The translations under genes were made by a program, and so were the position numbers. From IMG/VR virus record IMGVR_UViG_3300017786_000026, positions 1 to 42,018 of that record: 42,018 nucleotides of DNA. One strand, 5' to 3'. This document shows positions 6,222-31,700 of the stretch, piece after piece; position 1 is the stretch's first letter; each line of letters opens with the position of its first letter. The stretch is from a virus. The notes beneath the pieces are model-generated. The model saw nothing but the letters and a program-made list of their open reading frames with translations, was not told where the DNA came from and searched no databases.

Positions 6222-7535
6222 TTAGTTAACTCTTGCTGAAGTGCTATAGACATTTATTTTATCGATGTTATTATCGTCAAATTCACCAGATTGGATATGC
6301 AATTTTATATTAGAAGTAGAAGAAACCAGAGAGGAATACATATCAGCATAATCAGAAAGATTATAAGTTCCGGTTAAAGAATTTAAATCATCATCATTAG
6401 TTATTGTAACAGTTACAGTGCTTGCTTCTTTACTTGCTCCGATTTGAATTTGAATTGTGAGCGTAAATTTATTTCCGGTTGCAGCAGCAAGAGGTTGCCA
6501 ATTTGCATTTGTTCCTATAATTTCTGATAACGACTCTTCATCTCTATCAAATTTCTGATAAAGTTTCATACGAGGAGTAGGATCATTATACTTTGTTTGA
6601 AACTTAGTCATGAGAGCTAAATTAGGTCCATCTAGTACGTGGCTTCCTGACTGGGAAAATGCTCCTATATCTACTAAAGCTATCAATAATGATCTTTCTG
6701 CCACTGGTTGAACTTCATCTGCAGTAAGTACATTATTACCATAATCAAAATTTACTGAAACATTAATAGTACTACCAACTCTAGATCGTATCGAACTTGA
6801 TGTTCGTATATTTCTAAATGGCGAAGATACTGTTATTTTATTATTTACTGTATCGTTTTGCCAATGAGTAGTACCTTCCCAATCTGGATGGTTACTAGTA
6901 GGACCATTGGTGTATCCTTCTGCTGTAGTAAACGTGCTATCTATACCTCCATTGATTGTAACTGTCCACCCTTTACTCTCTAGACTTAATTTTGCGGCAT
7001 TATAATTTCCAAGAGAAGGTATTGAGTTTGTTCCACCGAGATTAATAGTTCCGCTATTTAACCCATCAGTATCTAAAATGTTTAATACACTATCTACTGC
7101 ACTTTGAGATAAATCATTATTCAAAAGATTTAGTGTTTCTAAACTTGTAAAATTTGCAATGTGATCAAAAACACCAGCTGGGGCAGTTGTTAAACTATTA
7201 TTTGATATATCTAACAATGTTAAACCAGTAAGACTACCAATATTGGGCACTGATGTAATTTGATTATTTGATACATTTAAAGTTGTTAAACCAATAAGAC
7301 TACCGATATTTGTAAGAGTAGAAATTGCGTTATTTGAAATATTTAATTCTTCAATTGCAGTATTATTAGTAGCTGAAAATGTTACCTTAGAAAGATCATT
7401 ATAAGATGCTTTTAATTTCGTTAAGTTCTTAAGCTTAGTTAAAGACAATGTACCTCCAACTGCATTTGCACTTGAAGCCCTATCAAAATCTAATTCGGTA
7501 ATTCTATCTAAATTTGTTAAAGAAAGGGTTTTCAT
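6222..7535 (-). CDS. Leucine-rich-repeat tail protein, 437 aa
   Basis: Residues 1-190 are canonical leucine-rich repeats with the LxxLxxSxNxLxxL pattern: LTKLKASYNDL, IEELNISNNAI, LTTLNVSNNQI, LTLLDISNNSL and LETLNLLNNDL. The ~22-residue spacing is like internalin/SDS22-type repeats. Residues 200-437 are beta-rich without LRRs and end FDDNNIDKINVYST, resembling the last strand of LamG/ConA-like jelly rolls. The protein begins almost directly with repeats, without the capping or anchoring domain usual for LRR proteins. It lies in the fibre cassette between an 80-aa connector and a PKD-like small protein, so a host-surface adhesin on the virion is the best inference. No secretion signal is present, which argues against a bacterial internalin-like effector. 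Confidence 0.8.
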   Translation of the reverse strand: MKTLSLTNLDRITELDFDRASSANAVGGTLSLTKLKNLTKLKASYNDLSKVTFSATNNTAIEELNISNNAISTLTNIGSLIGLTTLNVSNNQITSVPNIGSLTGLTLLDISNNSLTTAPAGVFDHIANFTSLETLNLLNNDLSQSAVDSVLNILDTDGLNSGTINLGGTNSIPSLGNYNAAKLSLESKGWTVTINGGIDSTFTTAEGYTNGPTSNHPDWEGTTHWQNDTVNNKITVSSPFRNIRTSSSIRSRVGSTINVSVNFDYGNNVLTADEVQPVAERSLLIALVDIGAFSQSGSHVLDGPNLALMTKFQTKYNDPTPRMKLYQKFDRDEESLSEIIGTNANWQPLAAATGNKFTLTIQIQIGASKEASTVTVTITNDDDLNSLTGTYNLSDYADMYSSLVSSTSNIKLHIQSGEFDDNNIDKINVYSTSARVN

Positions 7536-16200: not shown

Positions 16201-18592
16201 TATATGAATCCCTTGAGAAATAATGTCCTGATTGGTGAGAATAATATTTGTAAGATACTTTGATACCTCCAAGACCAGATCCACCATCTATTCCTGCACC
16301 GGTATATTTAATTGCTCCTTTCTTATAACATCCATCTCTTTGGCCGTTATCAAGAAGAAAGTCACTTTTAACATCTGTTTCTGTAGGAGTACCATCAACA
16401 TCAAGTAATGTAGTGATTGTATCTATTTCATAAATATCGTAATTAGCAAGAGGAATTATAGCACCTGTTGCAACTGCATTCGTAACTGCTAATGCCTCTT
16501 CAGGACTTGCAGTTGTAACCGTTTCTAATGTTTTAGTCTTTCTACCTAAGCTTGAACGAAATGAAGCTATAACCTTAACTGTTCCAGAAGAAGAATTATC
16601 TATAGTACTTGCAGCTCCTAACACAATTGTAGTATTATTTGTATTCGGAGTAATGACAGCACTAGTGACTTCGTGTACAACATCTAATGCATCTATTATG
16701 ATATATGCATTTTCACCAATTTCTTCAAATCTATCCGGAGTAGTGACTGTAAGAGTTACGCTATTTCCAGATACATTTCCGGAAGTCGGAGTAAATATTT
16801 TCCTCTGAGTAAATTCAATTTCACCTGTATCACCTTTAACCGAACTAATAAAATCTGCAGGAAGTTTGTATATTGATCTATTAAATTGTGGTTCATTTAA
16901 AGCAAAATTAGTATTCGAATCAAGAGTAAACTCAAAACTTAAACTCGAATTTTCAATTGTATCTACACCATCTAAACTATATGGATCTCCGTTTCCATCA
17001 AGCTCAAATTGAATATCATAAATGTATAACCTATACTGAGTACCATCATATTCCATTGAACGTACTCGACATTTTGCTTTAGTTGTATTACCATCTTTAA
17101 TGTCATATACCGTATCTACATCAAATGAAGGTGCACCCTCTACCGAAGAACTTAAAACGTATGAACCAAGATTAGCAGTAGAAAAAACTTGCTCAAATCC
17201 AGGATTTGTAGTACGAGCTTTTTCTCCTATTACTTCCATTCTTTCAGGCTCAGCAATTCGATAACCATCAACGTATGATACAGATGGCTCAACTCCAACA
17301 ATAAATCGCGATTTAGCAAACCGTATTGTTTCATCTACCTTCGTTGGATCGGTTGCAATAGTTGCTAAGCTGCGTTCGCTGCCAATAGTTGGATCAGAAA
17401 TATCATTAGCTGGAATAACCATATCGCTATCTGCCATTTGTGCTAAAGTATATACACCACGACCACATTTAGAATCGTCATCCGTATTATTATAAAATCC
17501 TGTAATATCAATAAGGTATGGATCTACTGTATAATCTCCGCTATCTTCTCGTGTACGCTCAGCTAATACATCTGTAATTCCGCTAAATTCTGGTTTAGCA
17601 ACTTGAACAACTGCACTATCATCAACTTCTAAAAGAAATAATGTATCACCAATATCTGTAGAGTAACCGAAAACATCTACACTGCTTGATATAAAAGAAA
17701 AATCATTATCTGATACATCCTTACTTAATATAACCAAATCAAGATTAATAGTATAACGATCTGCGCCAGGAGCGGTATTATTTGGATATCCAGCAGCATT
17801 ATCAAGTAAAGATTCATCTGATTGATAATTTACAACGGTTTCAATAACTTTAAATACAACTTTAGCATTTAAAAGATAATCGGCAGCCGGAACAATTGCA
17901 TAAACATGTTGTGTTTCAGCATATACAAATTGTCCTTTTACAAAGAAAACACCTTCTTCTGATTTTGCGTGGATAGCCTTTCCTACCTGAACAACTGTGC
18001 CGATATCCTGTCCTGATGCATAAAGTGTTTCATTGCCTCGATCGGCTGCAATAAGCTCATCTAATAGCTCTATTGTATCAGGTGTTGGTGTTCCATCAAT
18101 ATCTCGTTCGGCAGAAAACACTTGTACATTATCCTCTGCTACAGTACTATCTTGTACAGAACTTAGATATTTAATATAAAACCGATAATGATTTGGTGTA
18201 GAAAGCGCTTGATAATGCAGTACTTCAGCTTGAATAAATTTTCCACTGCTTTTGTAGTCTAAACGAATACCTTTAACAACACTTAAATAAGGTGGTAAAT
18301 CGGTAAGACTTGCATCTAGATTTATATCAACATAGCTTAAAGAACGATCTAATGATGCTTCTGTAGCTAATTTTGGTACTGGACCTTCTTTAAAAATACC
18401 GCGACCTAATTTGTCAATCTGGTTTTGCAGAATAGACTGCATTTGATTAAGCTCACGTACTTGTACGCTAACTCCTGGTTTAAAAAGAATGCGAAGAAAG
18501 TTCTTTTCTTCAGCAGTCTTTTTGTTAAATTTTAAGTCCGGTCTAGCGAAATCATCGTTATACGGCTGTACTTGGTAGGTTTTTATAGCCAT
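13265..18592 (-). CDS. Large virion structural protein, DUF4815 family
   Basis: 1775-aa peripheral baseplate protein. The N-terminal ~60 residues match the DUF4815 family of marine phage virion proteins: YNDDFARPDLKFNKKTAEEK then NFLRILFKPGVSVQVRELNQ and QIDKLGRGIFKEG. The central part holds beta-rich Val/Thr segments and a helical stretch YTMRDIGKINSRVNNLEYYT. Near residue 1340 is QWYDPLAQSFIIGENPGGLF then IHSVDLYFS, and later TTFTFDSPIYLQYGLEYAMV, a jelly-roll-like block recurrent in this family. T4 has gp9-gp10-gp11 after gp8; this gene directly follows gp8 through a TAATG overlap, so it probably supplies the gp9/gp10-like outer wedge and fibre-attachment function. That equivalence is inferred from position and not from alignable sequence. 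Confidence 0.85.
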   Translation of the reverse strand: MAIKTYQVQPYNDDFARPDLKFNKKTAEEKNFLRILFKPGVSVQVRELNQMQSILQNQIDKLGRGIFKEGPVPKLATEASLDRSLSYVDINLDASLTDLPPYLSVVKGIRLDYKSSGKFIQAEVLHYQALSTPNHYRFYIKYLSSVQDSTVAEDNVQVFSAERDIDGTPTPDTIELLDELIAADRGNETLYASGQDIGTVVQVGKAIHAKSEEGVFFVKGQFVYAETQHVYAIVPAADYLLNAKVVFKVIETVVNYQSDESLLDNAAGYPNNTAPGADRYTINLDLVILSKDVSDNDFSFISSSVDVFGYSTDIGDTLFLLEVDDSAVVQVAKPEFSGITDVLAERTREDSGDYTVDPYLIDITGFYNNTDDDSKCGRGVYTLAQMADSDMVIPANDISDPTIGSERSLATIATDPTKVDETIRFAKSRFIVGVEPSVSYVDGYRIAEPERMEVIGEKARTTNPGFEQVFSTANLGSYVLSSSVEGAPSFDVDTVYDIKDGNTTKAKCRVRSMEYDGTQYRLYIYDIQFELDGNGDPYSLDGVDTIENSSLSFEFTLDSNTNFALNEPQFNRSIYKLPADFISSVKGDTGEIEFTQRKIFTPTSGNVSGNSVTLTVTTPDRFEEIGENAYIIIDALDVVHEVTSAVITPNTNNTTIVLGAASTIDNSSSGTVKVIASFRSSLGRKTKTLETVTTASPEEALAVTNAVATGAIIPLANYDIYEIDTITTLLDVDGTPTETDVKSDFLLDNGQRDGCYKKGAIKYTGAGIDGGSGLGGIKVSYKYYSHQSGHYFSRDSYSVDYGNISTYKDMRLSDCLDFRAKVDDNDPGTHLDPNSTIDSKIQYYLSRIDKLVVTKDSEFKLIQGVPAIVPEEPSVPSTAMHLYTLHIPAYTFCHTMIETSFIDNRRYTMRDIGKINSRVNNLEYYTTLSLLEREASGKQIFETTSGNPYERFKNGIIVDSFQGHEVGNVFDPHYNNSMDPDDPILRPYFETRSVPLTWTGNNLDSTNITTRDGISTLSYTAGPTWIDQQKAAVSISVNPYDVATWLGSVKLSPSSDEWMETRRAPNIINEVGGNLSDLRAEVDRINQMGTRWNSWQTTWTGKPVTTTTKESRNRAGIPWGLGPGRGWVRKVNTTVTTSKQVRTGIKTTASINSVTNVKDDRVIDVSFVPFIRSRKIYFSGKLFKPNTKLKVFFDGKDITKYSSGIPISTLGEVPSGYREWSTNASVKVYHNDEPTDIVGSLGHATAGDDIITDIRGDVFGWFVVPNNKEFQFPCGERKVILSDGKTATDPAATTSADAAYTAQGKVQTKQRTLVTTRTIVRQDQRITHSRIQTSTGVTRTQWYDPLAQSFIIGENPGGLFIHSVDLYFSHASTKNIPLKLYLVEMENGMPTQRRVPGSDVIKQPGEVATSEDASAITTFTFDSPIYLQYGLEYAMVTESNSSEYRQWLSEVGKNDVNTGEYISKNPFLGVSFKSQNASTWTPDQMKDFKMRVRETNFQSSGEIVLEARGISTTKADGSKYNPEIAADEIDGTLEYSQVQLNTDFIEHPETSIKFEISVNGGDYEVIVPNENHYISTAVGAPLTHNDNLKVKISLDTNNRKISPIVDLDRISLIAVKNIIGPEGDVNNIASDSLIQLDDNSAAIDSELAADHGKATAVYMTREVALNNPSDRLDSYLNINRPYSGSNVLVYARFKRSEDNIEDIPFIRIDPESSLLLNDYDDYAEVRYIKDFSLPDASGNASTVPLFTSFQVKIVLTSNDHAIVPTVKDFRAIATV

Positions 18593-20238
18593 TAGAATTG
18601 AATAACAAGTTTAACTTCATCTGTTTGGTTAAAATTTCTATTTATGGGTTTTCTGTTTTCATAAAATATAACTTCACCAGTTCCTGACATATACTCAGCT
18701 TCTCCTACATCCTGTAGTCGGTATTCCTTGCCGTCACTATAACCATCAATATTTGTAAGCGTGATTTGTGGAGTTTCTTCTCCAGTTCCATCTTCTTTTT
18801 TAAATTTTTTAAAATTAACTTTAGGAGAACTATTTTGATGATAGTATATTCTATCATTCTCAGTATCAACATAGTCTAGCCAAGCTCTTGCTCCAACGTC
18901 TGCTGAGAGACCGCCAACTTGTTCTATAATATAGTCTCTTCCAATATAATCATTAGTTAAAGGAGTACCTTGATTAACCTGTATGTATTTTAATGAGTCG
19001 TATGCTTCATCCTGAGTATATTGACCTTGGTTAATATCGGCATCTACAACAGCAGCACTCGCTGTATCACCGGTTGCGTTTCTTATTGGGTTTTTAATTA
19101 GACTAATTTGTCGAACATCAACGTTATAACCAGTAGGAGCTTCTCCATCAACATCACCTATAAAATCGACTGCAATGCCTGCGTAGAAAGATGGTAGATC
19201 TCTATCTGGAAATCTTCCAAGACCTTCTTCAGGTAACAATAGTGGTAAAATGTGAACTTCTTCATTAACTTCTCCGGTTCCAGTTTGAACAACTATAGAA
19301 GCAGTTACATAACCTAATTTCCAGGGTATAATATTCGCGGCTGGTTTATATTTAATTGATTCAATTCCGTTATTAAACACTACTTCAAAATCTCCAACAG
19401 CTGTACCTGCAGTATTTTGATTTTGATTGTGTATTACTACATCTTCTGAAGGTACTAAATCTCCGCTAGCAGAATCACGTTCTGTCCCCTTTATTGTTAT
19501 AATTGTAGAATCAGATTGAGGTATAGTAGTAGCTGTTGATCCACCATTAACAATTTTAAAATCATAAATTAATCCTCCAGTAGAAGTTAAGATTTGATCA
19601 TATTTATCGGTGGGCGCTTGTGTATAATCTACAAACTGATCGGTGTAAAATTTCGAATCTTCATCTAAACTTGAAACAAGTGTCCAAATATAACCTTCAC
19701 CGTTTGAAATTGCTTGAGGGTTACCACCGGTAAAGCTTAAATATTCATCATTTCCTGCACCAGAAGGAATTGCAACTGATGATGGAGTTACTTCACCATT
19801 TCCATCAGTATTTGCAAGACACATATATATGCGATCATTAGAAGTGACATAACATGGGTAGTATGCAACTCCGTCAATTGTTTCATAATCGAAACATTTT
19901 GGATCTGTTGGATCATATGTTTTATAGATTCTATCAAATGCCCAATTATTTCTTGGAATAACATTAAAAATTTCTGAATTATCTGTAGTTCCAGATATTT
20001 TAGCTAAAATCATAAGATTTTGCAATACGTCGTTTTTATCGAGATCAGTATCAACTGGTAAGGGGGCAGAAAACTGCCGACTATATTCAGTTACGACGTT
20101 ATTTAAAGAATCAGTCGTATCAGACCAACTATCAGTCTTACCTAATCCAATAAAATAATTGTCTGATCCATTTTTTAATTCATTAGTAAATATCGCTCTT
20201 GCGTTTTTTCTAAATTCTGATGTGATTATTGCTGCCAT
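18592..20238 (-). CDS. gp8: Baseplate wedge protein gp8
   Basis: Wedge subunit that with gp6, gp7, gp10, gp25 and gp53 forms each of the six baseplate sectors. At 548 aa it is longer than T4 gp8 (334 aa), but landmarks align in order: TSEFRKNARAIFTNEL at the N-terminus (T4 TSKFRTEKMLNFY), YFIGLGKTDSWSD (T4 FITFGRSEPWSS), FNVIPRNNWAFDR (T4 DAVIPRRDWGDTR), GEGYIWTLVSSL (T4 GDGYVWEYLFEI), IRQISLIKNP-type strand VRQISLIKNPI (T4 FRQISIITNPL) and the terminal ENRKPINRNFNQTDEVKLVI (T4 ENRPPIIMAMDQTEEINILF). The extra length lies mainly between residues 220 and 350. A TATAAATA late element precedes it by five bases, and its stop overlaps the DUF4815 start. Confidence 0.95.
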   Translation of the reverse strand: MAAIITSEFRKNARAIFTNELKNGSDNYFIGLGKTDSWSDTTDSLNNVVTEYSRQFSAPLPVDTDLDKNDVLQNLMILAKISGTTDNSEIFNVIPRNNWAFDRIYKTYDPTDPKCFDYETIDGVAYYPCYVTSNDRIYMCLANTDGNGEVTPSSVAIPSGAGNDEYLSFTGGNPQAISNGEGYIWTLVSSLDEDSKFYTDQFVDYTQAPTDKYDQILTSTGGLIYDFKIVNGGSTATTIPQSDSTIITIKGTERDSASGDLVPSEDVVIHNQNQNTAGTAVGDFEVVFNNGIESIKYKPAANIIPWKLGYVTASIVVQTGTGEVNEEVHILPLLLPEEGLGRFPDRDLPSFYAGIAVDFIGDVDGEAPTGYNVDVRQISLIKNPIRNATGDTASAAVVDADINQGQYTQDEAYDSLKYIQVNQGTPLTNDYIGRDYIIEQVGGLSADVGARAWLDYVDTENDRIYYHQNSSPKVNFKKFKKEDGTGEETPQITLTNIDGYSDGKEYRLQDVGEAEYMSGTGEVIFYENRKPINRNFNQTDEVKLVIQF

Positions 20239-20284: not shown

Positions 20285-20797
20285 TTATGTATTTCGTATG
20301 TTAGTGTTATTTGGAACCATAAAAACTGCCCAAGTTTGATCATATTTGACCGGAGGAATATTATATTCAGCATTTCCATCGAATTCAATCGCGTGATATT
20401 GATCTATAGTATGCTTTTTATTCTTAATGTATAATACATTGTTTTTAGTAAGTGAAAATGATAGAAACTTACCTAAAGATTTGCCTCTGGATGGTCTACT
20501 AGAAGTTTGTCTATTTACAAAATTACCAATTGAAAGATGTAGTATATTAAAGACCAAAGCACAATCAAGTATACCAATATGATTTAAAACATTTTGTAAC
20601 ATATCATAATGTGGATAAACTAAAAATTCGTTAGTACTAATTTTATAATACTCTGACATTGTTTCTTCATTTTTATAATCGTGATTTCTACCTTTTAATA
20701 CATCCGCGTATAACAATTTGCTATATCCGATATTGGTTTTACAGTAATTGTGATAATCATCTAAGACATCTTTAATATGACTAAAATTATATACCAT
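20285..20797 (-). CDS. Hypothetical protein, possible relative of the adjacent dioxygenase
   Basis: 170-aa protein not recognised with confidence. Parts resemble the adjacent 2OG-Fe(II) oxygenase: LSIGNFVNRQTSSRPSRGKS (89-108) against the oxygenase YLPGNFIPPHVDKGNS, and EFDGNAEYNIPPVKYDQTWA then VFM (138-160) against AFDGTTPIHWVPKVNTIRYS then AVIL. In this comparison the iron ligands H103, D105 and H168 and the 2OG-binding R177 of the neighbour are not conserved. The only HxD in this protein (H63-Y-D65) lies outside the comparable position. It could be a non-catalytic jelly-roll partner, a divergent enzyme with relocated ligands, or unrelated with chance similarity. The start overlaps the oxygenase stop by 11 bases, indicating translational coupling. 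It is the last gene before the gp8 promoter. Confidence 0.62.
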   Translation of the reverse strand: MVYNFSHIKDVLDDYHNYCKTNIGYSKLLYADVLKGRNHDYKNEETMSEYYKISTNEFLVYPHYDMLQNVLNHIGILDCALVFNILHLSIGNFVNRQTSSRPSRGKSLGKFLSFSLTKNNVLYIKNKKHTIDQYHAIEFDGNAEYNIPPVKYDQTWAVFMVPNNTNIRNT

Positions 20798-21347
20798 ACA
20801 AAATTACTGCACTATATCTAATTGTGTTAACTTTAGGAACCCAGTGTATAGGTGTAGTTCCGTCAAATGCAGCTCCGCGTCCCTTTATATCTTGAAATGA
20901 TTTTGTCATTCCTCTTTTATTTGATTCTTCAACTGGAATATTATCGTAATAAGCCTGCGGATTTCCAAATACTAAATTATTTTTTTCATTTGTTTGAAGC
21001 GGTACTGTAACAGTATGTAGGCTATTTCCTTTATCCACGTGTGGTGGAATAAAATTACCTGGTAAATATATATTTAATTGTACTTCAGTTGGTTCAAGAC
21101 CGTTACATGTTTTATCTTTAAAAATATCTTTCCATAAAGTAGGGTATTTTCCCTCAGTTATTTCAAAAGAATAATAAGATCCGACATCGTTATTAATGCC
21201 CATATTCTGGTAAACACTTGAGCGGTCCATCGCCTTCTCATGATCATTAAATAATTCAATTAATTTATCGCATTCTTTCTCGCTAAGAAACTTTTCTTTA
21301 ATAGATAACCGCGAAGAAATTTTAGACAGATGATCATCATAATTCAT
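20787..21347 (-). CDS. 2OG-Fe(II) oxygenase
   Basis: 186-aa double-stranded beta-helix dioxygenase that would couple 2-oxoglutarate decarboxylation to hydroxylation of a substrate at an Fe(II) centre. The facial triad is visible: H103 and D105 in LPGNFIPPHVDKGNSLHTVT, and distal H168 in GTTPIHWVPKV, followed by R177 (NTIRYSAVIL), the expected 2OG-binding position nine residues later. An N-terminal helical region (KFLSEKECDKLIELFNDHEK) is typical of the prolyl-4-hydroxylase-like superfamily. Such genes are frequent in marine T4-like phages, but the substrate is not known. Its position between a fibre/helper pair and gp8 makes a virion protein, such as the 1261-aa fibre, a candidate substrate by inference only. 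A metabolic or host-targeting role is equally open. Confidence 0.88.
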   Translation of the reverse strand: MNYDDHLSKISSRLSIKEKFLSEKECDKLIELFNDHEKAMDRSSVYQNMGINNDVGSYYSFEITEGKYPTLWKDIFKDKTCNGLEPTEVQLNIYLPGNFIPPHVDKGNSLHTVTVPLQTNEKNNLVFGNPQAYYDNIPVEESNKRGMTKSFQDIKGRGAAFDGTTPIHWVPKVNTIRYSAVILYGI

Positions 21348-21370: not shown

Positions 21371-21946
21371 CTATTTTTCTCGATTTATAGCTATTCCAAA
21401 TTTATCTTCAATTGGTCCTTTAACAATTTGTATGCTATTTTCAAACTGATCATCTCTACTTAGATAGTGATAATCATCACTATTTTTATATGCTTGTTTA
21501 TATTTATAATTTTGAGCTCTGCGCGCAGCAATATAAGAATGCATTGCTTTGAATTCAGCAACTTCACTACCAGACATATTATTTTCGTCAATAATCTTTT
21601 TGATCATATTCATTATAATATTAGACTGTGTATGCTCTGGATATTCACTTATAATTGTTTCTTTAGCAGTACGGTTTACAATAGTTTCAACAATAAACTC
21701 TTTTCTATCTTCAAGTTTTATTACTTTGCCATTATCGTAATCGCCTTCGTCCCACACATGGGTTTTACTATCAAATTCAACCTCTTTCCATTTATAAAGA
21801 TCGGCATCTAATTTAGATGTATCAACACCAATCAGTGTAGAAGTATACACTCCATTGTGTTTATTAAATACAATTACTTTTTTAGCAGTATTTTCAAAAT
21901 TAGAAGCCTGCTTCTCTAGTTTGTCAAGTAGAAATTTATCAATCAT
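21371..21946 (-). CDS. Probable fibre-associated helper protein, 191 aa
   Basis: Not assignable to a named family with certainty. It begins with a helical segment (MIDKFLLDKLEKQASNFENT), then a beta-rich middle ending VWDEGDYDNGKVIKLEDRKE. A helical part follows, with ETIISEYPEHTQSNIIMNMI and EVAEFKAMHSYIAARRAQNY at about residues 100-155. The pattern of Trp-rich GDYDNG strand followed by V-x-E...YP-x-x-x-Q-x-N-I helices resembles tail-fibre assembly proteins of marine phages. It follows the 1261-aa fibre gene by 13 bases, mirroring the fibre-plus-chaperone order at 1922-5584. Its upstream leader is nearly pure A in the sense strand, with no Shine-Dalgarno site. No transmembrane segment or signal peptide is seen. 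Confidence 0.7.
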   Translation of the reverse strand: MIDKFLLDKLEKQASNFENTAKKVIVFNKHNGVYTSTLIGVDTSKLDADLYKWKEVEFDSKTHVWDEGDYDNGKVIKLEDRKEFIVETIVNRTAKETIISEYPEHTQSNIIMNMIKKIIDENNMSGSEVAEFKAMHSYIAARRAQNYKYKQAYKNSDDYHYLSRDDQFENSIQIVKGPIEDKFGIAINREK

Positions 21947-21959
21947 TTTTTTTTATTTT

Positions 21960-24900
21960 TTAACCTGTTACTCTAAGTTGTGTATAAGCGAAGGTGGATT
22001 TAGATCCGGTAGCGTGATCAACTCCAACACCTCTTGCAATCTGCCTCCACACTGTTGTAGAAAGTACTTCCCAAAATCCAATAACCTGATCTACCTTATC
22101 TCGATTATACGTTCCATTTCCACCCCAATATTTATCTTGGAATGTTACATAACCTTTTACGATTACTATATCACCAACTGATACAACTCCCTTTAAATGC
22201 GCTATTCCGCTTTCAAGTGTAGCTGAATTAATCGCAGCACTAGAACTTGTTTGATTAACTGAACCCATATAATAATGTATTGCTCCACCTCCACCTATTC
22301 TCTGATTTACATAAGATTCTGTTGCATATCCTGACAAGCTTGGTATAGTTAAATTTCCAGTGTGATAAACGATATTACTACCAATTTTAATTTGATCACC
22401 TTTAATAATTGTTTCGTTATAGCCACCAGGACCGCCGACACCGCTAGAGTTCCAATTACTAATCTTCGGTGTATTTACACTCAATCCTTGTTCAGCATTT
22501 ACATAAACATACTCATGAGTTTGACCAGTAATTTTACCGCTTGATTCACCGGCATTTAAAATAAGTTGTTGACCGACTGAAGTTTTTATCTCCTTTGTTT
22601 TAACAGAAGTTATTGGAGTAATTATATCAGGAATTAGAGCATCTGAAATAGTTCCAGTATTTAAATTTGATGCATTTTTATAATAAGAACCGTGTTGTCC
22701 ATCTAATAAATCAGCATCTAATCCAGAAGCAGATCCATCATTACCAGCATGCCATATTTGATGTTCGGTAATACCGCTATCTGGTGTAAGAACAAAGTTT
22801 TTATTACCAGGAACATCAATTACAAGGTTATCAATCACTGTACCAGCAGCGTCATTTGTTACACCAATAACAAGATCCGATTTTTCACCACTAGTATTGT
22901 TAACACCGTGGGCATGGTATTGAATAAATCCAAAATCAGAAGCATGATTAATGCTAGTTCCATCCTTTTCAGATTTGAAAAAGATTCCACTTACACCCTC
23001 ACTGCTACCTTCAAGTATTAAATTAATACCATTTTTTACATAAGTACACGCCGATCTTACCGCTGCTCCAGGATCTACTGTTCCAGCAATAGTAAGAGCA
23101 GCAGTCATTGATTGATTTAATGTACCAGCTTTTCTTATATAATTATCGTCAGGGAATGTTTCTGCCTGTTTAGATAAAACATATTCTTTGGTCGCTAAGG
23201 CTAGCGGATTAGAGTTGATAACTTCTCTAGTTTGATCTGGAGCAATTATAGTTCCTTTAATTTCTACTCCTCCAGTATAATCTCCTGCATAATTAATAGT
23301 TAGCTTATCTCCACCACTATGAACAAGTGCTCTACCGTTATGTGTGTTACCTGTTCCAGCACGAGTAGAATTGAATATTTTAAAGTCTGTTCCAGTTAAA
23401 AGTATGTGACCACCAACACTCAAATTATCACCTATAGTGGCAACATTAATAACTCCTAAATCATTAGGAATAGTAACCGTTGTAGTGTCCCATTGTGGTC
23501 CAAAATCCGTGAGGTCTGTAGGAGCAATTTTCTTGGTATCAACATACCCTTTGTTAATTAAATGATCTGCTGCTGTACCTTGTACAGGTAGTGAAACCTT
23601 TTTAGATTGAGTATCAATTACAAGTGTAGAGGATTGTAAGCCGGCGCCTTCGTGACGAAAATAATGTGTATCTGCATTATAAAATGCTCCTATGGTTTCA
23701 GTTAACGCAATGTTAGCATGCTTACCAGCTGGTGTTTCGGGGGCGAGTGCCGAAAGAAGTAGGGTTTGACCTGCAGGGCTTTTAATGTTTTCTGTTATAA
23801 TATCACCAGTAGCAGTAATATCCCCGTCTCCAGAAATTGTTACGATGTTTGCTGTTCCAGCTGTAAAGTTAATATCCTGTGTAGTCTCAACAACTCCTAA
23901 ATGAAGATTACCTCCTGTTTGTACTATTTCATTCTGATCAATACCAAGACCGTTATTAGTATCTCCAATGAACAGCGGGATATTATTAAAATTAATTCCG
24001 CCAATTGTATCATTTGCATTTCCATCAATAACTACCGCGCTATAAAAAATTGATGATCCAGAGGTAAGTTTTAATCTTGGTGTTGAAGGAGAAAATCCAC
24101 CGCCAGAACGAGTATTGAACTCAATATCTCCTCCTCCGCTATTAATAGAAAACTTTCCAGTATCGCCGGAAGCACGATTAATACTTGCTTGAGCGACTAA
24201 GCTTGAATTAGCTGGTTTAAAAACTAAACTAGTGTTACCTCTAACATTTCCATTATCGCCGATATCAATTCGTGTTCCAACTGCATATAAATTATTTGCA
24301 ATTGTAACATCTCCAGAAGAATTCCAGTGTGGTCCAATTAATTCGATCTTTGGACTAGTTACTGCTTCATCAACTATTTCAGGAGTATTGACAGAGTCAT
24401 CCGCCATATGATTATTTGCTATTACATCATCTTGAATCTTATCACCTGCAATAGGGTTAAGAAGAATGTCTGCACGATCTACATATGCTTTTGTTACAAC
24501 TGCTTGGTCTCCAGATGTAGATATAGTTGATAAAGTCATATCATCAACTTTCACTACGCCTTTAATGCTTACGCCTCCAGTAAAATCACCTTCATGATTA
24601 ATTTTTAATTTATCTCCTGTATCATGAACAAGTGCTCTACCATCGTGTTCAAGACCAACACCTCGACTAGCTGCATTATATATGCTAAACGTTGTTCCAC
24701 TTTGTGAAATGTTTCTACCAGTAACAATGTCTTGAGTAACATTTAAATTATTTTCAATTTGAACAGAAACAGAATTCCACTGTGGTGATCCAGAAGTTAA
24801 TTTGGCAGGAGTTATAGTAGCATCTACTATTTTATCAGCAGCAATAATAGTGTTATCTAAAATATTAGAATTTGCTATAGAGTTATCTGCAATTTTAGAA

Positions 24901-25745
24901 TTATCAACTGCATTAGCTGCAATTTTATTAGATGTGATAGCTGAATTAGCAATAAGACCTGGGCCAATAGCAAGTTCTTTAATATTTAACCGATTAGAAA
25001 AATCGGCTAAGCCGTCGCCATCAGCGTCGCCATTGTTAGAATCATCAATTCTAAACTGATTGAGATTTACTTGGCTTGTTCCAATTTTATCGGTGTAATC
25101 AATTGTATCGAATTGTTCTTCAATTTTCTTAAAGTTATCGAGCTCAGGTTTAACACCAGCGAGCAAATCTGTAAAATCTTGTGCAACTTCTGTATTTAAT
25201 CTAAATTCATTTAATACGTGAGTAGCAGAATTACCACGAGCAGTTGAGCTATCACCAAAATATGTTTTAATTGCTGTATCAAATAGTCCTTCTTTATATA
25301 CAACGTGTTGATCAACTGCAGCTGCAGTAACTAACTTTTCATCTTCAGTCGTATTACCGATCGAAATTATATCATCAGTACTTGTATCGCCAGAAACAAT
25401 TGCACTTGCATTAATATGATCAAATATTATATCTCCAGGCTCAAGCTTATATTTTTGAATCGTTACAGTTTGAGTAGTACCGTCTTCTCGAAGATATTCT
25501 AAGGTAAACTGATCATTACCATCATCGGTATTTTCATCAGTATTATCATTCTGGTTTGCTCCTTGTACTACGCTAAGACTCGTTAATTTTTCATGTCCTT
25601 CGCCACTTAGAAAAAGTGTATCTAAAGAAATCCTAAATGTTTGTAAATTTCCTGCGTTATCGTGATCAACTATAGGAAAAAACTCATTTCCATTGATAAG
25701 ATCTCTATTGCTTAAATCAGGTAAATTTGAAATTTTCGTGCTCAT
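21960..25745 (-). CDS. Modular tail fibre protein, 1261 aa
   Basis: Fibre with an N-terminal anchor (KISNLPDLSNRDLINGNEFF then PIVDHDNAG) shared with the 80-aa connector at 7565-7807. The shaft has three related modules opening with a G-P-x-W motif: GSPQWNSVSVQIENNLNV (~330), GPHWNSSGDVTIANNLYAV (~475) and GPQWDTTTVTIPNDLGV (~755). Two of them continue into a second shared block around GRALVH..GDKL.IN. Further fibre motifs include LINKGYVDTKK, ALATKEYVLSK and LLDGQHGSYYKNASNLNTGT (~1020). The C-terminal ~100 residues (VGDIVIVKGYVTFQDKYWGG ... TFAYTQLRVTG) look like a compact beta tip. It interrupts the T4 gp7-gp8 order and is led by a strong late element. A receptor-binding role is inferred. 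Confidence 0.85.
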   Translation of the reverse strand: MSTKISNLPDLSNRDLINGNEFFPIVDHDNAGNLQTFRISLDTLFLSGEGHEKLTSLSVVQGANQNDNTDENTDDGNDQFTLEYLREDGTTQTVTIQKYKLEPGDIIFDHINASAIVSGDTSTDDIISIGNTTEDEKLVTAAAVDQHVVYKEGLFDTAIKTYFGDSSTARGNSATHVLNEFRLNTEVAQDFTDLLAGVKPELDNFKKIEEQFDTIDYTDKIGTSQVNLNQFRIDDSNNGDADGDGLADFSNRLNIKELAIGPGLIANSAITSNKIAANAVDNSKIADNSIANSNILDNTIIAADKIVDATITPAKLTSGSPQWNSVSVQIENNLNVTQDIVTGRNISQSGTTFSIYNAASRGVGLEHDGRALVHDTGDKLKINHEGDFTGGVSIKGVVKVDDMTLSTISTSGDQAVVTKAYVDRADILLNPIAGDKIQDDVIANNHMADDSVNTPEIVDEAVTSPKIELIGPHWNSSGDVTIANNLYAVGTRIDIGDNGNVRGNTSLVFKPANSSLVAQASINRASGDTGKFSINSGGGDIEFNTRSGGGFSPSTPRLKLTSGSSIFYSAVVIDGNANDTIGGINFNNIPLFIGDTNNGLGIDQNEIVQTGGNLHLGVVETTQDINFTAGTANIVTISGDGDITATGDIITENIKSPAGQTLLLSALAPETPAGKHANIALTETIGAFYNADTHYFRHEGAGLQSSTLVIDTQSKKVSLPVQGTAADHLINKGYVDTKKIAPTDLTDFGPQWDTTTVTIPNDLGVINVATIGDNLSVGGHILLTGTDFKIFNSTRAGTGNTHNGRALVHSGGDKLTINYAGDYTGGVEIKGTIIAPDQTREVINSNPLALATKEYVLSKQAETFPDDNYIRKAGTLNQSMTAALTIAGTVDPGAAVRSACTYVKNGINLILEGSSEGVSGIFFKSEKDGTSINHASDFGFIQYHAHGVNNTSGEKSDLVIGVTNDAAGTVIDNLVIDVPGNKNFVLTPDSGITEHQIWHAGNDGSASGLDADLLDGQHGSYYKNASNLNTGTISDALIPDIITPITSVKTKEIKTSVGQQLILNAGESSGKITGQTHEYVYVNAEQGLSVNTPKISNWNSSGVGGPGGYNETIIKGDQIKIGSNIVYHTGNLTIPSLSGYATESYVNQRIGGGGAIHYYMGSVNQTSSSAAINSATLESGIAHLKGVVSVGDIVIVKGYVTFQDKYWGGNGTYNRDKVDQVIGFWEVLSTTVWRQIARGVGVDHATGSKSTFAYTQLRVTG
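23250..23400 (-). repeat. Fibre internal repeat, downstream copy
   Basis: Encodes TGTDFKIFNSTRAGTGNTHN then GRALVHSGGDKLTINYAGDY then TGGVEIKGTI, matching the copy at 24520-24690 with the same order and spacing. The copies lie about 430 residues apart. Boundaries are approximate. Confidence 0.75.
24520..24690 (-). repeat. Fibre internal repeat, upstream copy
   Basis: Encodes SGTTFSIYNAASRGVGLEHD then GRALVHDTGDKLKINHEGDF then TGGVSIKGVVKVDD, the partner of the copy at 23250-23400. Identity is high in the GRALVH..GDKL core and in TGGV.IKG, and lower elsewhere. Confidence 0.75.
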
Positions 25746-25764: not shown

Positions 25765-28700
25765 TTAAGTGTTGATTTCGATGTTTGCTTGTTTAGTATT
25801 TCCTGCAGTATAGATTACACCGTCTCTAAAGAATTGATCAACTTCAGGACTTGATGGAAGAGTCGTTGAGGTATCAGTATTTATTGCTCCCTTCCAAGCA
25901 ATTAATATTGTTCTATTTGCACTGTTATTGTGTCCAACTACTAATCCCTCAATTGTAATATTGGCTCCGTCATTATCTACAATATTCTGAAATACTATAT
26001 CTCCGTGGACTATATTTCCTCCTGATATTACAGAAGTTATAGTAAATTCAACCGGCGCAGATACATCATCATCATTTGTTGCATCATTCCACCAATTACC
26101 TATATAATCATCGATAAGCAATTCGTTATTAAGTGGATTTGAATCATCTCTTTCGATATAAAATCCATCAGAGCTTTCAGTATCAAGTTGATTAATTTTT
26201 CTAAAGATAGCACCAACATTCATAAAGACATCGCTATTATCAAGCGCATCTTTAATAGTTATAGGAAGATAAGAACTAATATCATCAACGTCTTTAAACT
26301 TTAAGTTTTGCTCATAGTCTCTTTTAGTAAATACTTTTTGTGGCACTAATGAAGGTATAACATACTTGAATGCCATAAGAACCGATCTTACAAACAATTC
26401 TGAATTAATATCAATGCTCGACGTATCTTGCAGTAAGTATGCTTGGTTCTGTTCTTCTGCTCCATATACGCTTATAGTCTCTTCTTTATTTCTTAACTGT
26501 GTTGCTAAAATAGTTGCAGTAGTTGCACTGCCTGATACAGCTATATCACCATTAATAAATATATTGGTGTCATCTCCTGATCTTTTAATTATTCCAGTAA
26601 ATTGATCACCGTCTGGTTTAATTTGTGTTATGATACCCTGTTTAATAGATTCTACAAATGTCACTGCGTTTGTTGCACCTGACCAGTTTGCTAACCATGG
26701 TGTGAATTGCGTAGTTGGTTCTGAGGTTGAAATTTCAGTTGGTGTATTATCAGAACTATCTTTAATGGTCCATATATAATTACTGATAGTTGCAACATTA
26801 AACGATAGAGAAGTACCTCCTCCACCACCTAGACCAACGTCCGTAATAGTAATTGTTTCACCTGCAATAAAACCACTTCCAGTTTTTACAATAGTAATAT
26901 CAGCGGGTGTAACAATTCCTCCAGGGGCTACTGTAATACTAAATTCAGCACCTTGACCATCACGGTTTGAGCTAGTATTTTCGTCTGATATTCTAACAAT
27001 GAATGTACCAGGTGTACGATCTTCAGATGTAGCATTTACGAGTGTTCCTATAGTCGCAACACCTCTTTCAGCAACTGTTAATACACCATTTCCACTCGAT
27101 TGAGTGTAACCACTACCATCAGCAGCTATACGATACTCTCCACTAATATCTGCATGATTAGCAACTGTTATACCAAATCTTGATTCGAAATTACTCTGTG
27201 TAACTATATCTGCAATTTGAAGTGGAGCTCCATTAACGTTTACTACTCTAATTTCAAAATCTTCAGATGGATCTCCATCTGAATATGTTATACTATAACG
27301 TGATGCTAAGTTATTACCAGGTACAGATCTTGCTAATTTTGTCCATAATCCTGCTTCAAATATAAATCTACGAGTTCTTATATCTCCTTGTAACCAACCA
27401 GGTTGGAACATAGGAAGATGATAACCACCGTTTTCGCTTGGTGCTGTAAGATCTTGAAGCCACCGTAGATCTTCTAATGGTTGTTTAGTTCTGAATGGTG
27501 CTAAATATTCGTCTTCTACTTTAAGAGTACTATAATTTTTTCGTGTATTTGAATTAAATTCTATATATTTAGGACCATACCAATGGTTATCTCTTATTAC
27601 AAGAAGAATAACACTTGCAAAGAATTTAAGACCAGCTGGGTGGACTAGATTTAAAAAAGTATTTTCCCAGTCTGATACCTTTAATCCACTTCGGATATTG
27701 TATGAAAATCTTTGCCAATAATTGCTATCTTGTATACGACCAGTAGAAGATGCTCTTCCCTTTCGGTCATAATATTCACCAATATAATCAAGTGTATAGG
27801 TATGATATAATGAAATATCATTTGATACATTATTTAATCTTCCATCTCCCCAGTAAATAGTTTCTTCTTCTGACTTATTAATTCCGTAGTCAACAGTTAT
27901 TTTAAGTTGGGTGTTATCTTTGACATTACCGTCATTATCTTCATGTTGAACTTCTGGAGGATCAAAATATAGGAATGAATTAAACGTGTGTCCATTTAAA
28001 TCATCAAAGGAAAATGCTCTATCTGCATACGGAATAGAAGTCATTTTAGTGGCACCGATAGCACTTCCTATTATTTTATCAAATATAAGTCTATAAAATG
28101 ATTTTACATTTCTGTCGAAATAATCTGTTATTTGATTTTTTATATCATTATCAATAGCTTGAGTATAATATTGTACGTGACTAATATCTCCGTAAAACAA
28201 ACCATTTTGATTTTTTCCAATAATAAAATTAGCTTCAGGAGATATAGTTAAGTGCCGAAGAGTATTTCCTTCTATAATTGTTTCGAAATTTGAACCGTCA
28301 AAGGAAATAGAGACATAACCATTGTATCTGTCAGCCTTTCCTTTTATTATCATCAGATTAAACTTATTAACATTAACCGTTTGCGAGTCTAAGTATATCT
28401 CTGATGAAGGAGCAGTTGAAATGACAAAATCCCCTTTATATTCATTATCAGTTATTTTATAGCCAGCGTTTTCTTCATTACCTTCATACACATATTCTAT
28501 TAATGGTTTTTCTACTGATGTTGTATGTATTAATTCTGGATAAGAAAGAACTGCGTTATATGATAAAGGTTTATTATCTACTGTTTTTAGAACTGCACTA
28601 TTATTTAATCTTCCTCCATAAGATGTAACAGCCGGTAAACCATTATAAGGTTCAACAAATGGGAATGACTGAATAATATTATCTGCTACTTTTCCATAAA

Positions 28701-31700
28701 CATCATAAGCGACATTTGTAGTATTTTCATTACTGAATATATCAGAGCTTGGACCATTTAATATTCTATTAACGCTATCCGGTTCCAATGAAATTGCAAA
28801 TCCTTCATTAACATTATCAACAACAATATTAGCTCCGTAGTTTAATCCTACTCTAAATTCATCTTCATTTTTTTGACTAAATGGTATAGAACTACCGAAT
28901 TCTTCAAATGATTTCCATACATTTTGAGCCGTTGTATATTGACTTTTAATATAATATAATTTTGCACGAGTATTATGTTGTGCTTTATTATATACATCAG
29001 AGAAATTATATTGCTGTACAAATTGTTGTGCGTTATTTATTCCACCATTTACTAAAAGTAAATCATCTCCAAAAAATTGAAAAGAATACTGTCTTGATCC
29101 ATTATGTGTAATATAGTTATCTCTTCCATCAGTTATTTTTAATAATGAATTATAATAACTAATCCAAGATGTAGGAGATAGTTTCTCCCATATATTAATG
29201 CCATACGAAGAAGCTTTTATAATAATTGATCCGCTTTCACTTATTTCAAATTTTCCTCCATCAAGTAAAGAATTAATGCCAGTTGTAACAGTATTACTAT
29301 AATTACTTGATAGATTTTTTTCTATTTCTTCAAATTCTGTATGACCAATAGACTTGTTATAAAATGAAATATGAGCGAATGCGTTATTACTATAAATCTT
29401 AAGTTGTGTCGATGAATCAATTCCGATAACAGGACTTCTTTCTCCATCCGGATTTGATGTAGTTGATATCAAATCAACTGATTTCGATCTTTTAAATCCA
29501 TTAATAGAATATCGTATTCCAGTAATTACTTTTTCTGGGTGTATTGATAATTTACCAGTTGTAAATTCAATCGTTACATTATTCCATTCTCCTAATTTTA
29601 TTTCGCTGTCAAAATATTCATCACTAAATATCTCACGCGGATTGGCATCTAAAATAACATTAGTATCTGCCTTATCTAAAGATATGGGATAATCGATTTT
29701 TCCGGATTCTTGTGATACAATTTGTAATATATTTTTTCGCGTTGCTGCATCTTTAACTATACGAAGAGTAATATTTCCGATAGTTAATATATTACTATTT
29801 TGAAATACGTTAGATACTTTAAATCTTGTAGATAAAGTAAAACTATCATTTAAAGAGAAATTAAAACTAGTTCCAGACGTCTCTATTATAGAATCAAAAA
29901 TAACACCAACATCCTTTGATGTATCATTAACTATACTCGGCGAGTCAAATCGTGAAAATCCATTATTCGATAACCATGTTCCACTTGTTAGATTATTACT
30001 AACATTAAATTCAAAATTCGGTACAGGAGGATTAGACAGTGCAGCAGGCAAAGTTGTATATTTTGTAGGGAGCCAAAATCCAGTTGGGTCAAGGTTGTAT
30101 ACACGAATAATTTGTGCGATATTATCATTATTAAGTGAGTGAGTACCAACAACAATTTGTGATCGTTTTAATTTAACATGCACAAAATCTACTAATCCTG
30201 CGTGTGTAGTTGGAAGATCTAAAGATAGCGTTTGAAAATAATTGTATCGGTTGTATTCATCTACTTTAAATACAATAATACGAGATGAACTACCAATAGG
30301 TCTATCCAATAAAACTAGATATTCACTATCTACTGCATAATCTAAAATATCCCATAGTCTTTCTCCGTCGTAAATATCTGTACCACCAATTGTGATATCT
30401 TGCCATGGCGCATATGTACCATTATGTTTATACGCTATAGACAAATAACCTCTATTGTGCAAAGTAAAGATATGGTCATTATTATTTTTAACGTAATCAC
30501 AGTGCGGTAAAACAGGAAGATTTTCGTCTCCAGGTTTACTTCCTTTATTCCATTTTACACCGATATCATACGGGTTTATACTCATAGGATTTGCTTTCCA
30601 ATCAGTATAATATACCGTATTTTCTTTATTTTTAATTGACCATCTGCTTTCTGCCGATGAAGTATTTTGTTCAGCATGAATAAAGGTGTCTATAGTAGCT
30701 TTAAGCGAAACTTGGTATGCTTCTACTTTACCTTTATTTGTACCTTCTTGATCATTTCCGGGAGATGCTACTATAACTCGTGTACCGGTACCATTTATAC
30801 TTACATTTTGTCCACCATTACTAGTACTTCCAAATCCTTCAATGTTTTTACCGCCCTGTTTCCACAATCCTACTTTACTTGAATAAAAGAAAACTCGAGC
30901 TTGTCCCGAATTACTACTTGTATTATCATTACCTGGAGATCCAATTACAACAACGTCTCCTTTTGAATTTAAACTAACGCTTGCTCCACAATTATCTCCT
31001 TGGTACTCTCCTTCAAGTGTTTGTCCAACTTTATTCCAAACGTTTCTATCACTAAGAGAATAGATTTCAACTTTTCCTTTATAATTTTCTTGTGTTCCAT
31101 CACCAATAATACCAACCGCAAATGTTTTTCCGTCATTACTTAAACTTATTGGCACTGAATCTCTATTCAGTCTCTCTTGTGGATTAAATCTTACATCTGA
31201 TCCTATTTGTATCCATGTATTGCTAGATAGATTATAAACATAAGCTCTTACAACCATTGCAACTTGACCAGAATCATTTATAACGTGTGTTCCAACAAGA
31301 AGAGTTAGTCCATCGTCACTTAATCTGACAGTATTTCCGCTAATAGGATCAGCATCTGTTTCAACAACGTTTTGACCTACTTGAGACCATGATGCACTAG
31401 GAGATCCAGCTGTAGGAGAAAATGAAGCATTATTTTTATAAACAATAACTTCATTAGATGTTCTTTCTGGAATTCTAGCACCAATAGTTTTTCCGCCGTC
31501 AATTTCTCCGAATTGAGGATTTATACCAGTCTCAATAGTAAAAGAATTTGAAGTAATTGCTGGTCCACTTCTTATGTAAGTAATATCTGTTGTAGTAATA
31601 GAACTAATTTCAAATAGTCCATCGTATTGATGTGATACACCACTTACATATACGTGAGTAGAAGCGACATCAAATTCTCCACCACCAGCAATAGTGGCTA

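Follow-up and report, generated by a model that had tools for sequence, protein, structure and literature searches.

A 2OG oxygenase and its inactive relative, encoded beside the tail fibre from ocean phages to phiKZ, suggest a two-part enzyme that modifies the fibre tip

A unit of four genes was found in many tailed bacterial viruses, among them phages of the ocean and phiKZ, a giant Pseudomonas phage. It encodes a tail fibre with a variable tip, a helper of about 190 aa, a 2OG oxygenase, and an inactive oxygenase, here called the partner, and it suggests a two-part enzyme that modifies the fibre tip. Computation established that the oxygenase carries the full set of ligands, that the fold of the partner is complete but offers no usable iron site, that the partner is under purifying selection, and that both are co-inherited with the helper and the fibre.

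The analysis started from the IMG/VR record IMGVR_UViG_3300017786_000026, a viral contig 42,018 bases long; this whole stretch of DNA is called the window in the following. On its minus strand, the genes have the order tail fibre, 191-aa protein, 186-aa 2OG oxygenase, 170-aa protein, T4 gp8-like baseplate protein, and DUF4815 protein. An earlier note on this DNA had described the two central, overlapping ORFs, and both were recovered as given there; their overlap amounts to 11 bases. The features are:

21960 to 25745, minus strand: tail fibre protein of 1261 aa, encoded immediately upstream of the helper; its C-terminal tip travels with the module
21960 to 22262, minus strand: fibre tip (last 100 residues and stop codon), the proposed substrate region
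21371 to 21946, minus strand: 191-aa helper, a probable fibre-assembly chaperone (role inferred from position); phiKZ gp136 family, phrog_13209 (E 1e-17)
20787 to 21347, minus strand: 186-aa Fe(II)/2OG oxygenase, prolyl-4-hydroxylase-like; phiKZ gp137 family, phrog_2297 (E 6e-12)
20787 to 20797, minus strand: overlap of the oxygenase and partner reading frames, 11 bases
20285 to 20797, minus strand: 170-aa inactive protein with a 2OG-oxygenase fold (partner); phiKZ gp138 family, phrog_14616
18592 to 20238, minus strand: T4 gp8-like baseplate wedge protein, a neighbour outside the module; Pfam Phage-Gp8 (E 2e-12), phrog_438 (E 4e-33)

Two further proteins of the window were recorded as side observations. 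A protein of 437 aa encoded in the tail gene region (6222-7535, minus strand) contains leucine-rich repeats (LRR_4, E 7.5e-12), and a 2924-aa protein (25765-34539, minus strand) had only weak matches to baseplate-wedge and FG-GAP models.

Scans of IMG/VR for close relatives using the window proteins alone found nothing, and searches of named phages with the same proteins gave only weak matches. The gp8 neighbour gave the first access to relatives, and profile searches then extended the set. Two alignments were compiled, A8 with 32 partners and A9 with 30 oxygenases. A8 leaves out the loci L054, L057-L060, L075, L076, L078-L082, and L084, which are identical or close to rows that were kept. A9 leaves out L054, L055, L057-L060, L075, L076, L079-L082, and L084 as well as the truncated L031 and L077. 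The named-phage loci L047-L052 are absent from both alignments. Loci that were found later (L086-L114) are outside the site table, and the residues of one of them, L111, were read by eye.

The earlier note had inferred a kinship of the two proteins from short motifs that they share. However, BLASTP of the 170-aa protein against the 186-aa protein alone detected no similarity (E=15), and the motifs alone therefore proved little; what upheld the kinship were deep profiles. In the first profile-profile comparisons, which contained few relatives, homology was not shown in two cases and was borderline in a third (E=0.0028). When the 32 partners were compared with the 30 oxygenases, 140 columns could be aligned with E=1.7e-6 and a probability of 89.9%, whereas the best of 200 column-shuffled controls reached E=0.032. 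A reversed profile gave E 0.1, and the unrelated family of the 191-aa helper gave E 0.46 and 0.54.

The predicted structures led to the same relationship. AlphaFold2 models were obtained with a pLDDT of 87.3 and a pTM of 0.84 for the window partner, and with values of 95.1 and 0.90, respectively, for the window oxygenase. The barrel strands of the partner model (82-88, 94-97, 109-115, 120-124, 127-131, 135-140, 145-147, 154-162) correspond one-to-one in their order to those of the oxygenase model (86-94, 99-103, 109-116, 120-128, 148-153, 158-162, 168-170, 177-185). With VIA-align, the best match of the partner model had a Z of 13.5 (3dkq) and spanned model residues 1-165, N-terminal helices included; the best 50 matches listed comprised 49 named oxygenases or 2OG enzymes and one uncharacterised protein (2rg4). 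The 170-aa protein is thus predicted to have the fold of 2OG oxygenases, a double-stranded beta helix; any other fold would have refuted the idea of a jelly-roll pair put forward in the earlier note. The top Foldseek match of the partner model was PHD2 (E 9.5e-7), and some cupins followed lower down. In the BFVD viral structure library, the best match was PhiPA3 protein 157 (E 4.4e-10, TM 0.74/0.77), which belongs to the same family that the sequence searches had given. The profile phrog_14616 matched 29 of the 32 members of the partner family, the window partner not being among them. Searches of solved structures by sequence with phiKZ gp137 and gp138 gave no match, and the partner profile reached only E 0.45-0.91. 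Taken together, the evidence makes it close to certain that the 170-aa protein is a remote paralogue of the oxygenase encoded next to it, and that it is inactive.

Next, the co-occurrence of the two genes was quantified from both sides. For the marine type, the oxygenase was adjacent in all 17 contigs of the partner-based scan, and the partner was present in all 15 contigs of the oxygenase-based scan. For the phiKZ type, the corresponding numbers were 33 of 33 and 30 of 30 loci, with L058 belonging to both sets. Partner homologues that never co-occur with the oxygenase had been named beforehand as a possible refutation; instead, they accompanied it at every recovered locus, in both directions, although distant solo oxygenases beyond the reach of the patterns used might exist. 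The helper was present at all pair loci except at contig ends (L031/L046, which represent one contig, and L077). Among the records of isolated phages, all of which are Pseudomonas phages, 72 contained the oxygenase, 71-72 the partner, and 72 the helper; the record sets were taken as equal from these counts, with the best 60 of each set listed. Because many loci and records are near-copies, the independent cases are far fewer than the counts. A scan of the GTDB species genomes with one pattern set yielded no relative of the phiKZ-type partner, and no prophage context is therefore known.

The oxygenase and the partner are separate ORFs at every locus examined, but the junction between them is not uniform. 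It consists of the 11-base overlap in the window, a four-base overlap in L003, L007, and L013, and a four-base gap in L002, L004, and L010, and in L111 the gene order is swapped to helper, partner, and oxygenase. Translational coupling, which had been proposed for the pair, is no more than suggested by the 11-base overlap of the window, given the different junctions at other loci and the reversed order in L111. The four-gene unit also persists in differing genomic surroundings. Because co-inheritance outlasts the change of gene order in L111, it points to a functional tie between the oxygenase and the partner that goes beyond a shared operon. The oxygenase frame of L009 (4884-5450; the same contig as L028 and L045) is divided between two ORFs, whereas it is whole in the near-identical L010 and L015; the split reflects either an error in sequencing or a disrupted gene.

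In named phages, the unit corresponds to phiKZ genes 135-138 (also reached through fnug), PhiPA3 154-157, and Noxifer gp150-147, and it is also present in PA1C, 201phi2-1, QdP_Psa3 (115 kb), and Milchi, whose baseplate genes are T4-like. The gene order of phiKZ 135-138 and its orthologues is the same as that of the window, namely fibre, helper, oxygenase, and inactive partner, and profile-profile comparison gave E 7e-15 for the partner and E 6e-21 for the oxygenase. The arrangement had been expected to be new for phages. It is new as a recognition, but it was present all along, unrecognised, in the sequenced phiKZ genome. Most of the named phages list the fibre gene as a virion structural or tail fibre protein, and the other three genes carry the labels hypothetical or 'DNA endonuclease'. 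The annotated start of PhiPA3 gene 156 (NC_028999.1, 144859-145341) appears to be too late, as the similarity is complete only in an open frame that begins 165 bases upstream. Co-sedimentation of PHIKZ135 with the 30S subunit is described in the portion of PMC10914614 that was available, and was counted neither for nor against the interpretations given below. The portions available of PMC11849849 and PMC5694885 contained nothing on these genes.

In 48 of the 49 loci listed, a fibre ORF immediately precedes the helper; at the remaining locus, L083, the helper itself is cut by the start of the contig. One phage type comprises fibres with the module (the window, L002, and L003) and fibres without it (L011 and L016). 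They have common N-termini of about 250 aa with 46-69% identity, and the N-terminal 250 aa of the window fibre are 47-51% identical to both the module-less L011/L016 and the module-containing L002/L003. In contrast, within that phage type the last 100 aa of fibres with the module did not match those of fibres without it (best E 0.056). The tips of the module-less L011 and L016 align with each other at 52%, and the module tips match one another weakly (E 0.002 to 0.2). Hence, in this one phage type, the tip type and the module are present or absent together despite the common fibre N-termini. Across the groups, the similarity of the tips is weak but chained: the window tip matches marine tips with E 1.8e-3 and another marine group with E 3.7e-4, and the chain continues from marine A to marine B (2.9e-6), from marine A to the Milchi type (2.6e-4), and from the Milchi type to the phiKZ type (6.9e-4). 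Homology of the tips across all groups is not established, as several pairs have none and phiKZ-type against marine tips gave only E 0.14-0.26. The tips are very variable, no residue is conserved in all module loci compared, and no shared target residue was found, so that no one position stands out as the site of hydroxylation.

The helper had no credible Pfam match. Matches to SUMO/SMT3 tags were weak and were judged to be due to chance, and the same applied to a model of a DNA-packaging protein, which weakly matched only 2 of 11 helpers. Two neighbourhoods of fibre genes are described for completeness. L008 lacks the module and shares gp8; its fibre has another end, which is followed by genes of 65, 186, and 118 aa (3175-4493), and the 186-aa gene looks oxygenase-like by eye but has no Pfam match at E<=0.01. 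In L111, a second 2OG oxygenase of the ordinary kind (PF13640, E 6e-14) is encoded just upstream of the module fibre together with a Phage_tail_APC protein (433-1092 and 1085-1447), and the two represent another neighbourhood of an oxygenase and a tail chaperone.

We propose that the pair is a two-subunit, 2OG-dependent protein hydroxylase for the phage's own tail fibre, a proposal that we consider evenly poised between right and wrong. Catalysis, complex formation, and the substrate are undemonstrated, and we know of no reported activity of the pair and of no modification of the fibre. The 186-aa oxygenase would be the catalytic subunit, and the partner would be a degenerate, non-catalytic paralogue in the same enzyme, which is inferred to bind the fibre tip, the active subunit, or both. 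The helper of about 190 aa would chaperone the tip, and the complex might hydroxylate at least one tip residue during assembly and thereby tune folding or receptor binding. A protein substrate is favoured over DNA or metabolites because the closest folds are peptide and protein prolyl hydroxylases and because the tie to the fibre is tight. It counts against a mechanism involving the fibre that marine phages often carry 2OG oxygenases for unrelated reasons. A more specific version can be advanced only tentatively, as a serious possibility that may well turn out to be wrong: that the pseudo-oxygenase subunit recruits the receptor-binding tip of the fibre, that a heteromeric 2OG hydroxylase oxidatively modifies this tip, and that tip, helper, hydroxylase, and pseudo-hydroxylase form a mobile cassette common to T4-like marine phages and phiKZ-type giant phages.

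Alternatively, the partner could act alone, as a second fibre chaperone or as a ligand-binding jelly roll that does not bind the oxygenase, and the genes would be clustered since both serve the fibre. Chaperone genes beside fibre genes are indeed common, the conserved Trp residues of the partner could form a binding site, and divergence is faster in the partner (26-37% identity to the window copy) than in the oxygenase (44-57%). However, the partner shares its descent and its fold with the oxygenase, and neither was found without the other at the scanned loci, which would not be needed for a separate chaperone. This explanation thus seems unlikely, but it retains some weight.

For the oxygenase, the proposed catalytic subunit of the hydroxylase, the ligand set is complete. 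The residues H103, D105, H168, and R177, which represent the HxD...H iron triad and the 2OG-binding Arg, are invariant in all 30 aligned sequences. The Pfam family PF13640 matched the window oxygenase only with E 0.02 and 16.2 bits, under the cut-off of 27, and it matched 11 of the 30 oxygenase relatives at E<=0.01. The closest solved folds are prolyl 4-hydroxylases, with the algal enzyme 3gze as the best VIA-align match (Z 16.5), followed by the Pseudomonas putida P4H (4j25/4iw3, Z 15.7/15.2) and the chlorovirus vCPH (5c5t, Z 14.8). The best 50 structural matches listed were 2OG oxygenases, although the absence of a nuclease among them is no proof. Both phiKZ gp137 (NC_004629.1, 141934-142413) and phrog_2297 are labelled 'DNA endonuclease' in RefSeq/PHROG. 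This label looks wrong because of the full set of 2OG-oxygenase ligands and the prolyl-hydroxylase-like fold of the family.

The main alternative with respect to the substrate is that the oxygenase acts on a target other than the fibre, for example in DNA or RNA repair of the AlkB kind or on host metabolites, and that the partner is a specificity subunit. For cyanophage 2OG oxygenases, a role in DNA repair or 2OG metabolism has been suggested in the part of PMC3037559 that was available. The RefSeq label of gp137 would also be compatible with a nucleic acid target, and AlkB-family chains are among the listed structural matches of both the partner and the oxygenase. Nevertheless, the oxygenase is always inside the fibre gene cluster at the loci seen, its best structural match is a prolyl 4-hydroxylase, and the presence of the module tracks the type of fibre tip in one phage group, such that a non-fibre target appears improbable.

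The partner differs from the oxygenase at the catalytic residues. In the profile alignment, a Trp is opposite the first ligand His of HxD in 31 of the 32 partners; this pairing adjoins an alignment gap and is less certain than the other assignments. The position of the HxD Asp, two residues after the Trp, is occupied by Asp in 9, by Glu in 6, and by Gly in 10 of 32 sequences. The distal His is retained in 31 of 32, and the Arg is replaced by Gln (18), Asn (6), Ala (2), Gly (2), Glu (1), or Ser (1) and remains Arg in only 2. The window copy is more extreme. Its HxD region reads FVNRQTSS and contains no Trp, Tyr145 takes the place of the distal His, and Gln154 takes that of the Arg, whereas its Trp156 is conserved across the partner family. 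Thus, neither the HxD...H iron triad nor the 2OG-binding Arg is present. Read by eye, the L111 partner also lacks the Trp and has a Tyr at the distal His place, whereas the phiKZ-type partner keeps both the Trp and the distal His. The claim of the earlier note that HxD, distal His, and Arg are all missing therefore applies to the 170-aa protein but not to the family at large, because the loss of the distal His is particular to the window and L111. As the ligand residues are replaced, normal 2OG chemistry by the partner is very unlikely, as far as its sequence can tell. In all 7 pairs tested, the pN/pS of the partner was 0.14-0.34, indicating purifying selection; in one of these pairs, the oxygenase had a pN/pS of 0.7, which is uninformative due to the few changes.

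The residues retained leave room for the view that the partner is not dead but has a different mode of binding metal or 2OG and a catalytic or sensing role, given the nearly invariant distal His and the Asp or Glu two residues past the Trp in 15 of 32 sequences. As the first His is almost always exchanged for Trp, the Arg is nearly always lost, and the window and L111 copies lack the distal His as well, we regard this as very improbable. A mere coincidence of gene neighbourhood, with the likeness reflecting a common cupin or jelly-roll arrangement without a functional tie, could cite the cupins among the Foldseek matches, but it is scarcely credible in view of the 140-column profile homology with its clean controls, the 2OG oxygenases among the VIA-align matches listed with the N-terminal helices included, and the complete co-occurrence from either side.

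Returning to the two-subunit hydroxylase, the closest parallel is OGFOD1/Tpa1p, the eukaryotic uS12 prolyl 3-hydroxylase. According to the part of PMC4396695 that was available, the catalytic and the C-terminal jelly rolls of OGFOD1 pack tightly onto each other, and the C-terminal domain has no metal site. In both systems, a catalytic jelly roll of the 2OG type is combined with one that is metal-free, which for the phage proteins rests on sequence and predicted fold. However, in OGFOD1/Tpa1p they are two domains of one chain that acts on a ribosomal protein, whereas in the phages they are encoded by two genes beside a tail fibre gene. By analogy, the partner may be inferred to pack on the oxygenase as in OGFOD1/Tpa1. 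For prolyl 4-hydroxylases, a tandem inactive paralogue is not known. Phage tail fibre assembly chaperones include the T4 gp38-like, Phage_tail_APC, and TAP proteins. Like the helper, they are encoded by a small gene directly after the fibre gene, but the helper lacks a credible Pfam match, and the equivalence rests on position. That phages can encode a single 2OG oxygenase is well established. The active/inactive pair was not found described in the open-licence literature searched (titles and abstract openings) on phiKZ gp137/gp138, phage 2OG oxygenases, tail fibres, and pseudoenzymes, and neither was an obligate pair of this kind on separate genes within a fibre cassette.

These results offer a testable function for a set of unassigned genes in phiKZ, a model giant phage. 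The pair would be a clean natural case of co-evolution of an enzyme and a pseudoenzyme with the parts on separate genes, and it would potentially go beyond the precedent of enzyme plus pseudo-enzyme if a modification of the fibre were shown. If the fibre tip is the substrate, receptor-binding proteins of phages may be oxidatively modified, and a fibre expressed alone would miss this modification, which would matter for how fibres are understood outside their native phage.
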